From: Altererythrobacter sp. TH136
Lineage (GTDB): Bacteria; Pseudomonadota; Alphaproteobacteria; Sphingomonadales; Sphingomonadaceae
Length of the DNA: 64,000 nt
Assembly (NCBI RefSeq): GCF_007065885.1
Contig: NZ_CP041409.1
Coordinates: 558,001-622,000, forward strand
Direction: 5' to 3'
In this document: one piece after another, positions 3,353 to 5,287 of the stretch
Layout of the letters: each line of letters starts with the position of its first letter
How positions within the stretch are numbered: position 1 is the stretch's first letter
The notes under the pieces: generated by a model
The model's database searches: none
Told to the model about the DNA's origin: nothing
Seen by the model: only the letters and a program-made list of their open reading frames with translations
Program-made: the position numbers and the translations under genes

Positions 3353-3991
3353 ATGGAGGAAAAACCACCCGTTCCCCCCGCCCCGCTTCCCGCCTCGGAG
3401 CGCGAGCTGTTCGCTTCGATTGCCCTCAGCCCGATCGCGACCGTCATCACCGATCCACGGCTGCACGACAATCCGGTGGTCGCGGCGAACGACGCCTTCT
3501 GCGCGCTCACCGGCTATCGTCATTCGGAGATCATCGGGCGAAACTGCCGGTTCCTGGCCGGGCCGACCACCGAACCCCACCTGACCGAGCGGATTCGCGC
3601 CGCGATCCGCTCGCCCGCGGCCACGCTCACCGAACTGGTCAACTATCGCAAGGACGGCACGCGCTTCCGCAATGCGGTGCTGATCGCCCCGATCCTGGAC
3701 GGGGACGGCTCGCCCGCGTGGTTCCTGGGGTCGCAGGTGGACGTCAGCACGGCAGAGGATGCCGCGGACGTGCTCCGGCGGCAGCGGGCCCGCGACGCGG
3801 TGGAGGCGCTGTCCCCCCGCCAAAAGCAGGTCCTGACCGAAATGGCGCATGGTTATCGCAACAAGCAGATCGCATGGCGGCTCTCGATCAGCGAACGAAC
3901 GGTCAAGATGCACCGCGGCCTGATGCTGGAGAAGCTGGGCCTGCCCACGTCTGCCGACGCGATCCGGCTGGCGATCGAGGCGGGACTGTAG
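3353..3991 (+). CDS. LOV-HTH blue-light-responsive transcription factor (EL222-like)
   Basis: 212 residues with the architecture of EL222 from Erythrobacter litoralis: a single LOV domain (about 17-132) then a LuxR/GerE-type helix-turn-helix (about 152-212). The photoactive cysteine is in GRNCRFLAG (C65), which forms the flavin C4a adduct in blue light. Flavin-contacting residues N97, N107 and Q128 are all present in their usual contexts (ELVNYRKDG, FRNAVLIAP, FLGSQVDV). The HTH contains SPRQKQVL and TVKMHRGLMLEKLG, close to EL222. In that protein light releases the HTH from the LOV surface, allowing dimerisation and DNA binding. A near-consensus EL222-type site lies just downstream in front of a fasciclin gene. 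Regulated genes are inferred only from position. Confidence 0.93.
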   Translation: MEEKPPVPPAPLPASERELFASIALSPIATVITDPRLHDNPVVAANDAFCALTGYRHSEIIGRNCRFLAGPTTEPHLTERIRAAIRSPAATLTELVNYRKDGTRFRNAVLIAPILDGDGSPAWFLGSQVDVSTAEDAADVLRRQRARDAVEALSPRQKQVLTEMAHGYRNKQIAWRLSISERTVKMHRGLMLEKLGLPTSADAIRLAIEAGL

Positions 3992-4004
3992 CCCTTCGAG
4001 ATAC

Positions 4005-4016
4005 GGTACAAAGTCC
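4005..4016 (+). promoter_or_regulatory. Candidate binding site for the LOV-HTH regulator
   Basis: GGTACAAAGTCC fits the two-half-site EL222 consensus as I recall it (RGNCYWWRGNCY) at 11 of 12 positions; the only mismatch is A for C at 4008. The overlapping 8-mer AGTCCATG at 4012-4019 is identical to the end of the well-known C120 EL222 site as I remember it. It lies between the LOV-HTH stop and the first fasciclin gene, about 65 bases upstream of that start, a sensible position for an activator. Confidence 0.45.
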
Positions 4017-4080
4017 ATGTAACCAGCCCCAGGACGGGTTCCTATCTTTGCGTCACACAGACGCCATCGAGGACCCGCCC

Positions 4081-4650
4081 ATGAAGCTTTCCGTCGCCGC
4101 CGCACTGGCACTTTCCGTCGCCCCGCTTGCCGCCTGCACCACGATGATGGACGGCGGCATGGCGACGCAGACCGCGTTCGTCGGTGGGGCCGAGATGTTC
4201 CCATCGCGCAATATCGTCGAAAACGCCGTCAATTCGCCGATCCACACCACGCTCGTCGCAGCGGTCAAGGCTGCCGGGCTGGTCGACACTTTGTCCGGGC
4301 CCGGTCCGTTCACCGTGTTCGCGCCGACCAATGATGCGTTTGCGAAGCTGCCCTCCGGCACGGTCGACACCCTGCTCCAGCCCGCCAACCGCACCCAGTT
4401 GCAATCGGTGTTGACGTACCACGTGGTCCCTGGCCGCGTGAGCGCAGCCGAACTGGTCGAGATGATCCGGGCCGGCGGCGGCACGGCGCGGCTGACCACG
4501 GTGCAAGGCGGCGTGCTGACCGCCAGCATGATGGGCAACCGGGTGATGCTGACCGATGCCGCCGGCGGCATGGCCCACGTCACCCAGGCCGACGTGTTCC
4601 AGTCGAACGGCGTGATCCACGTGACCGACGCCGTTTCGCTCCCCGGCTGA
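4081..4650 (+). CDS. Fasciclin (FAS1) domain lipoprotein, first of a tandem pair
   Basis: 189 residues. The start at 4081 gives a clean lipoprotein signal (MKLSVAAALALS...) with lipobox PLAAC, predicting a lipid-anchored envelope protein. One FAS1 domain (about 45-188) is recognised by GPFTVFAPTNDAFAKLP (H1 box), LTYHVVPGRV and the C-terminal SNGVIHVTDAV (H2 box). FAS1 domains mediate adhesion or surface interactions; no enzymatic role is expected. The paralogue 40 bases downstream shares the same blocks, so the pair looks like a tandem duplication. Position directly after the LOV-HTH gene, behind a candidate site for it, suggests light-dependent expression, which is inference. Confidence 0.9.
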   Translation: MKLSVAAALALSVAPLAACTTMMDGGMATQTAFVGGAEMFPSRNIVENAVNSPIHTTLVAAVKAAGLVDTLSGPGPFTVFAPTNDAFAKLPSGTVDTLLQPANRTQLQSVLTYHVVPGRVSAAELVEMIRAGGGTARLTTVQGGVLTASMMGNRVMLTDAAGGMAHVTQADVFQSNGVIHVTDAVSLPG

Positions 4651-4696
4651 GCCGCCAGTTGTTCTCAAAAGTAGTAGTGAACTGAAAGGAATGTCG

Positions 4697-5287
4697 ATGA
4701 AGACCCTCATGACCGGCGCGGCGCTTGCCGCCGCCCTGACTCTGGCCGCGTGCGATGCCCCGGCTGAAACCACCACCCCCGCCGCCACCGATGACATGGC
4801 GATGGCCGAAGAGACCGCCGGCGATACCGCACCGGCCGGTGGCGCAATCGTGGAACTGGCGCAGAGCAACGCCGACCTGTCCACGCTGGTTTCGGCGGTT
4901 CAGGCAGCGGACCTTGGCACCACGCTTTCCGGGGCGGGACCGTTCACCGTGTTCGCGCCGACCAACGCCGCGTTCGAGGCCGTGCCGCAGGCCGCACGTG
5001 ACCAGCTGATGAGCCCCGCCGGCAAGCAGGACCTGACCGGCATCCTCACCTACCACGTGGTCGCCGGCGAAACGATGAGCCCCGCGCTGATCACCGCCAT
5101 CGAAGGCGCCGGTGACGCAGGCTACACCATCAAGACCGTCAATGGCGCGAACCTCACCGCCACCCTCGAAGGCGGCAAGGTCGTCCTGACCGACGCCGCC
5201 GGCAACAAGGCGACCGTCACCCAGACGGACGTCGATGCCTCCAACGGCGTCGTGCACGTCATCGACAAGGTGCTGATGCCCGAATGA
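4697..5287 (+). CDS. Fasciclin (FAS1) domain lipoprotein, second of a tandem pair
   Basis: 196 residues from the second of two nearby ATGs. The ribosome-binding sequence AAAGGA at 4685-4690 touches the upstream ATG at 4691 but sits six bases before 4697, so 4697 is preferred. Lipobox LTLAAC is followed by a Thr/Ala/Asp/Glu-rich linker of about 30 residues and one FAS1 domain with GPFTVFAPTNAAFEAVP, LTYHVVAGE and SNGVVHVIDKV. The longer acidic linker is the main difference from the upstream paralogue. It is probably cotranscribed with that gene, with the transcript ending at the hairpin 5320-5349. Confidence 0.9.
   Translation: MKTLMTGAALAAALTLAACDAPAETTTPAATDDMAMAEETAGDTAPAGGAIVELAQSNADLSTLVSAVQAADLGTTLSGAGPFTVFAPTNAAFEAVPQAARDQLMSPAGKQDLTGILTYHVVAGETMSPALITAIEGAGDAGYTIKTVNGANLTATLEGGKVVLTDAAGNKATVTQTDVDASNGVVHVIDKVLMPE

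Follow-up and report, generated by a model that had tools for sequence, protein, structure and literature searches.

EL222, from Erythrobacter litoralis HTCC2594, is an established tool in optogenetics, and the natural regulation exerted by its family receives little space in the available excerpts of two reviews, of which one (PMC9614035) treats EL222 mainly as a tool and the other gives its role as "Binding to DNA consensus sequences"; both are consistent with the claim of the preliminary description that the natural regulons of this group are poorly known. The DNA consensus of EL222, RGNCYWWRGNCY, and the C120 operator, TAGGTAGCCTTTAGTCCATG, are given in the accessible part of a further paper (PMC10521638), and CCUCCUCCC-loop hairpins have been described as anti-Shine-Dalgarno RNAs in Rhizobiales, SmelA075 and SmelA099 among them (PMC3927594, accessible part). 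In the open-licence literature, no report was found of a LOV-HTH gene arranged with an operator and FAS1 (fasciclin), sRNA or rhodopsin genes, and AN-45 was not found there together with EL222. AN-45 is said to be a DNA name from the work of Rivera-Cancel et al. in 2012 and Nash et al. in 2011 on EL222 DNA sites.

In the window, which is the whole 64,000-nucleotide stretch analyzed here, the ORF at 3353–3991 (+) is intact, has exactly the coordinates noted earlier, and encodes a LOV-HTH protein of 212 aa. Pfam assigned PAS_9 (E 4e-16) and a GerE/LuxR HTH (E 5e-18) to it, each well over the cut-off, and found no match on the opposite strand. In detail, the LOV (PAS) domain covers residues about 22–133 (3416–3751), as defined by Pfam, structural relatives, and the strands and helices of the predicted model; a linker helix follows at residues 135–151 (3755–3805; pLDDT about 60–85 there), and the LuxR/GerE helix-turn-helix occupies residues 152–207 (3806–3973) according to Pfam, the alignment and the model. 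The photoactive Cys65 (codon 3545–3547) lies in a GRNCRFLA motif of the GxNCRF type, and the flavin contacts N97, N107, and Q128 are all in place, so that the cysteine, flavin contacts and HTH, which the preliminary description had read as intact, are borne out residue by residue. All four residues are kept in 131 of 133 aligned LOV-HTH homologues; in the other two (L311 and L321) the flavin-contact Gln is replaced by Leu, and weaker LOV signaling would be expected.

The EL222-type identity proposed earlier was likewise upheld by Pfam, by the best structural relatives and by the fold of the model. The two closest solved structures are both EL222 (8a5r, E 4e-67; 3p7n, E 8e-67; residues 22–212), while the next-best LOV protein of known structure reached only E 1e-27, placing the window protein nearer to EL222. 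Aligned over 191 aa, the two proteins are 56% identical, and the recognition helix (residues 181–195, 3893–3937) shares 12 of its 15 residues with EL222. LOV domains usually carry Gln after RFL; the window protein has Ala (A69) at this position, as EL222 does. An AlphaFold2 model (mean pLDDT 79.8, pTM 0.52) showed a LOV domain, a linker helix, and an HTH of four helices, all as expected, and its best structural match was EL222, but with that pTM and an rmsd of 15.5 after superposition on EL222 it cannot place the domains relative to each other. In the rest of the genome (one contig, 2,608,152 bases), seven other matches were found, none spanning LOV and HTH together in full. Within the genus, 5 of 11 genomes were found to have a LOV-HTH protein, and within the family 115 of 397 do at E 1e-50; a second LOV-HTH gene in Sphingomonas sediminicola (L051) is broken between its LOV and HTH parts, with two frames and an early stop. 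Judged from its sequence, the window protein is thus a typical EL222-group protein, and what is probably new is the likely target adjoining its own gene.

This target and its operator had been missed in the preliminary description. A putative EL222-type operator, TACGGTACAAAGTCCATG (4002–4019, +), recognized by consensus match and comparison among loci, begins 10 bp beyond the LOV-HTH stop codon and sits before the ATG of a FAS1 gene at 4081. Its 12-bp core, GGTACAAAGTCC (4005–4016), is one mismatch from the published consensus and lies near the predicted promoter; a second one-mismatch match (3983–3994, +) overlaps the stop codon and may be a chance occurrence. Because one-mismatch matches are frequent by chance (38 found in the window vs. 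42 expected), the case for the operator has to be made by comparison. A predicted promoter (4020–4048, +), read from the sequence and from the phasing across loci, follows directly, with a -35-like stretch (4020–4025) abutting the operator, a 17-bp spacer, and a TATCTT -10 element (4043–4048), from which transcription would start near 4055. The operator is thus centred about 44 bp before the predicted start, near the class II position of LuxR-type activators, and it is from this geometry that activation, not repression, is predicted.

For the comparison of flanks, 185 LOV-HTH matches in loci were reduced to 133 unique ones. Of these 133 loci, 24 have the exact published consensus in the first 110 bp past the LOV-HTH stop, and 59 have it when up to one mismatch is allowed; the corresponding counts in 2660 random windows drawn from these loci were 5 and 199 (Fisher 2e-28 in both cases, with related loci not being independent). 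An earlier test of 44 loci against the 3′ flanks of other genes gave 11/44 vs. 0/305. Within 110 bp 5′ of the LOV-HTH genes, the exact consensus was found in none of the 133 loci and a one-mismatch form in 11, and autoregulation from the usual 5′ place was rejected on these counts. A directional 18-mer, YAYNGNMCAARGNCCRTR, was matched with at most two mismatches in 45 of 133 flanks, 0–44 bp past the stop, vs. 12 of 2075 random windows; since it was derived from such sites, the window's own included, the literature consensus is the cleaner test.

Further, the operator and the -10 element are phased. Among 63 loci with at most three mismatches to the directional operator, the base right after it is T in 95% and A stands at offset 24 in 89%; TA begins at offset 23 in 32 of them, at offset 25 in 14 and at offset 0 in 8, while other offsets have 0–6. 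Such phasing fits a housekeeping promoter with its -35 directly against the operator and a spacer of 17 bp. The operator combined with A at offset 24 occurs in 56 of the 133 loci, representing 22 of 38 coded genera, vs. 26 of 2075 random windows. The remaining 77 loci are without a phased operator, and in two congeners (L132 and L135, genomes G123 and G124) no operator was found 3′ of the LOV-HTH gene. On a quick tree, many of whose branches are weak, the phased-operator label changes 25 times, a count to which the cut-off may add; the phased operator is therefore not one inherited block.

The genome-wide distribution of sites bears on how large the regulon would be. The protein might be a global light regulator, for which the adjacent site would be one of many operators, most of them too degenerate for a pattern, and FAS1 a minor target. 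The 12-bp consensus is indeed short and permissive and matches this genome exactly at 77 sites, and FAS1 is just one of several gene kinds found behind the operator in relatives; however, the reversed control gave 155 matches, so that the 12-bp consensus is useless alone and a genome-wide regulon drawn from it was rejected. The directional operator has its sole exact genome match at 4002–4019, and its three one-mismatch matches, against eight for the reversed control, all lie within ORFs. Across 119 genomes, 28 exact directional matches were counted, while the control sums to 29; eight of the 28 lie at a LOV-HTH 3′ end, and the other 20 are no more than the control's total. An exact match is present in 11 of 24 LOV-HTH genomes vs. 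10 of 95 others (p 2e-4). These counts make the global reading rather unlikely, and the simplest reading of them is a small, local regulon, although degenerate sites would escape such a pattern test.

Behind the operator lie two genes for FAS1 proteins, each with a lipobox-like LAAC. The first (4081–4650, +; 189 aa; Pfam E 9e-34) is the predicted main target, and the second (4691–5287, +; 198 aa; Pfam E 3e-34) begins after a gap of 40 bp and is probably cotranscribed. The order LOV-HTH, operator, FAS1 was also found in six other loci (L038, L039, L040, L242, L327, and L328). In two congeners (L133 and L134, with FAS1 loci L165 and L166), where FAS1 is convergent to LOV-HTH, the spaced operator and -10 precede FAS1 and are absent behind the LOV-HTH gene. 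Counted against the rhodopsin and EL222 rows alone, with 115 rows left out of the count, the seven FAS1 rows fall into a single group on the tree (1 change, support 88).

A test set of 37 FAS1 loci, a part of all FAS1 matches, was used to ask what precedes FAS1 elsewhere. The spaced operator was found ahead of FAS1 in 4 of 14 loci from genomes with LOV-HTH vs. 0 of 23 from the others (Fisher 0.015, in 37 loci only). In other sphingomonads, FAS1 may instead be driven by an ECF sigma factor, and were this so in the window, the LOV-HTH protein would have another role: an ECF-promoter-like G(C/T)A(A/T)CC...CGTA pair precedes FAS1 in 15 of 23 loci without LOV-HTH (for example, L168, L171, L172, L173, L183, and L186) and in 5 of 14 loci with it. 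This pair was, however, present at none of the four FAS1 genes bearing the spaced operator, and RskA_C had no match in this genome, in a search of low sensitivity (positive in just 2 of 14 control genomes) that says little about ECF factors. We give an ECF-driven FAS1 in the window very little credence.

Other genes occupy the slot behind the operator in other lineages. Reference proteins for the slot, apart from the PAS histidine kinase, were named by Pfam. Of the 63 loci with an operator, 10 have a rhodopsin gene as the next one, 7 a FAS1 gene (in the window, by direct reading), 2 a PAS histidine kinase gene, 2 an FAD oxidoreductase gene, 1 folE, and 1 a DUF378 gene; by reading, DUF378-like small ORFs also follow in L041 and L044. 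A Blh-type dioxygenase lies within the next three genes in 9 of the 10 rhodopsin loci (L138, L144, L147, L150, L267, L272, L303, L310, L329, and L332). The place of the rhodopsin gene behind the operator suggests that rhodopsin is under light control there, although a hairpin intervenes in several of these loci. In five loci (L048, L049, L159, L160, and L317), a PAS-rich kinase-like gene stands in tandem to LOV-HTH, and an operator of another flavor (TATGGACTTTGGTC...) is located about 60–75 bp past the LOV-HTH stop. The gene folE is divergent from LOV-HTH in L132, L133, L134, L143, L156, and L047, with an FAD oxidoreductase gene beside it in all but the last. Frequent as these two neighbors are in relatives, they are not claimed as targets, because the exact consensus was absent before folE in all seven loci scanned. 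In this genome, folE is located elsewhere (G000:C1:653665-653994).

The gene after the operator is convergent in roughly half of the loci that bear one, which leaves the operator with no protein gene to drive. Such loci could mean that the site serves autoregulation, or a roadblock where the LOV-HTH transcript ends, with FAS1 a bystander. What follows the operator in the convergent loci speaks against this, for putative hairpin RNAs lie there: the stretch after the operator folded more stably than shuffled sequences (mean z -3.48, n = 34, vs. -1.17 in 39 convergent loci without operator), and CCTCC was present in 28 of 34 vs. 8 of 39 (p 1e-7). Three of the 34 (the window, L041, and L044) were misfiled as convergent by the simple gene caller, the control class not being hand-corrected; minus those three, CCTCC occurs in 26 of 31, and z is under -2 in 23 of 31 (previously 24 of 34). 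Tandem loci showed less of this: where an operator is present, mean z was -2.22 and 11 of 29 held CCTCC; where it is lacking, the values were -0.6 and 7 of 30. The -10 element at fixed spacing, directed away from LOV-HTH, and the operator at FAS1 in L133 and L134, far from the LOV-HTH 3′ end, also run counter to a roadblock or autoregulatory site, which we regard as highly improbable.

The hairpin stretches have recurrent loops such as AUCCUCCCUCCUCC. For eight of them taken as one set, pairing reaches 96.4% along a 14-bp stem, and five pairs are changed on both sides (slid controls, 19–47%). In another set, of seven, pairing along the outer 9-bp stem is 98.4% and a single pair shows a double change, within the range of shuffles, while RNAalifold found 7 of 20 pairs with double changes. 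Both sets were chosen among well-folding loci. Rfam gave nothing at gathering score in 11 loci and nothing up to E 1 in 8 loci. In a tree-based comparison, the operator and the CCTCC hairpin changed the same way in 3.8 pairs and the other way in 0.1, with 10 of the 14 pairs showing no difference, which is not significant (median p 0.125). These stretches are presumed to be transcribed, and the RNAs may, by their CCUCC loops, block ribosome-binding sites. In the window, the 60 nt after the operator showed neither a fold signal (z +0.8) nor CCTCC, so a CCUCC hairpin RNA is absent there, and no Rfam match came near the gathering score.

One such hairpin lies at what we take as the locus of EL222 itself (L258), whose protein matches EL222 at every one of the 191 aa aligned. 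Its 3′ flank carries the exact consensus, CATGGGCCAAGGTCCATA, 44 nt past the stop and a phased CTAGGC, followed by a hairpin with the loop CUCCUGUCCCUCCC and then a GC-rich hairpin with T's after it. This loop and the terminator-like hairpin are common to three close relatives. The stretch of L258 running from about 2280 back to 1880 on its stored strand is a candidate light-induced sRNA, with counterparts in L136, L137, and L247. For the hairpin at the EL222 locus, ar7 was rejected as its family, the match being at chance level (16.6 bits vs. a gathering score of 60; E 0.45).

Taken together, the window gene likely encodes a blue-light activator of the one-component type that acts mainly on the FAS1 transcription unit right behind it, because of the near-identical recognition helix, the enrichment of the consensus in 3′ flanks, the phasing, the FAS1 order in relatives, the arrangement in L133 and L134, and the sole exact genome match. 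This reading is weakened by the 77 of 133 loci without a phased operator, the one mismatch in the window core, and the size of the FAS1 test (37 loci). By analogy with EL222, blue light would cause the flavin in the LOV domain to form an adduct with C65, and the adduct would release the HTH, allowing the protein to dimerize and bind DNA. The dimer would then bind 4002–4019, in class II position next to the -35 and centred about 44 bp before the predicted start, and the bound activator would switch on the two FAS1 genes (4081–5287), with a light-induced change of cell surface or adhesion as the presumed output.

More broadly, and with somewhat less assurance, we favor the view that EL222-type photoreceptors are largely dedicated switches, each with its operator and promoter behind its own gene, which would drive, in many lineages (that of EL222 included), a hairpin sRNA that is induced by blue light, carries anti-Shine-Dalgarno loops and is as yet undescribed; in the window's lineage, fasciclin lipoprotein genes; and in others, rhodopsin plus a retinal-forming enzyme. 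As the content of the slot differs by lineage, the sensor and promoter would, on this view, have stayed constant while the output was exchanged. The natural job of EL222-type sensors thereby receives a concrete, testable answer, with FAS1 in this genome, the hairpin RNA at the EL222 locus, and rhodopsin in rhodopsin-bearing relatives as predicted targets. The natural promoter geometry, an operator abutting the -35 and a 17-bp spacer, could also guide the design of light-inducible promoters.

Compared with known systems, the window protein shares with EL222 the domain order, photoactive Cys, flavin contacts, Ala after RFL, and recognition helix, and in both loci a putative operator lies behind the protein's own gene. 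The proteins are 56% identical, and the photochemistry of the window protein is predicted from that of EL222; after the operator, the EL222 locus has a putative CCUCC hairpin RNA, whereas the window has FAS1 genes. LuxR/FixJ-type class II activators share with the window the GerE HTH and an operator beside the -35, but have a receiver or autoinducer domain where the window protein has a LOV sensor in the same chain. The CCUCCUCCC-loop sRNAs of Rhizobiales have CCUCC-rich loops in common with the RNAs behind the LOV-HTH operators of relatives; unlike them, the relatives' RNAs mostly consist of a single long hairpin, are associated with a photoreceptor operator, and have no match in Rfam, while the window has no such RNA.
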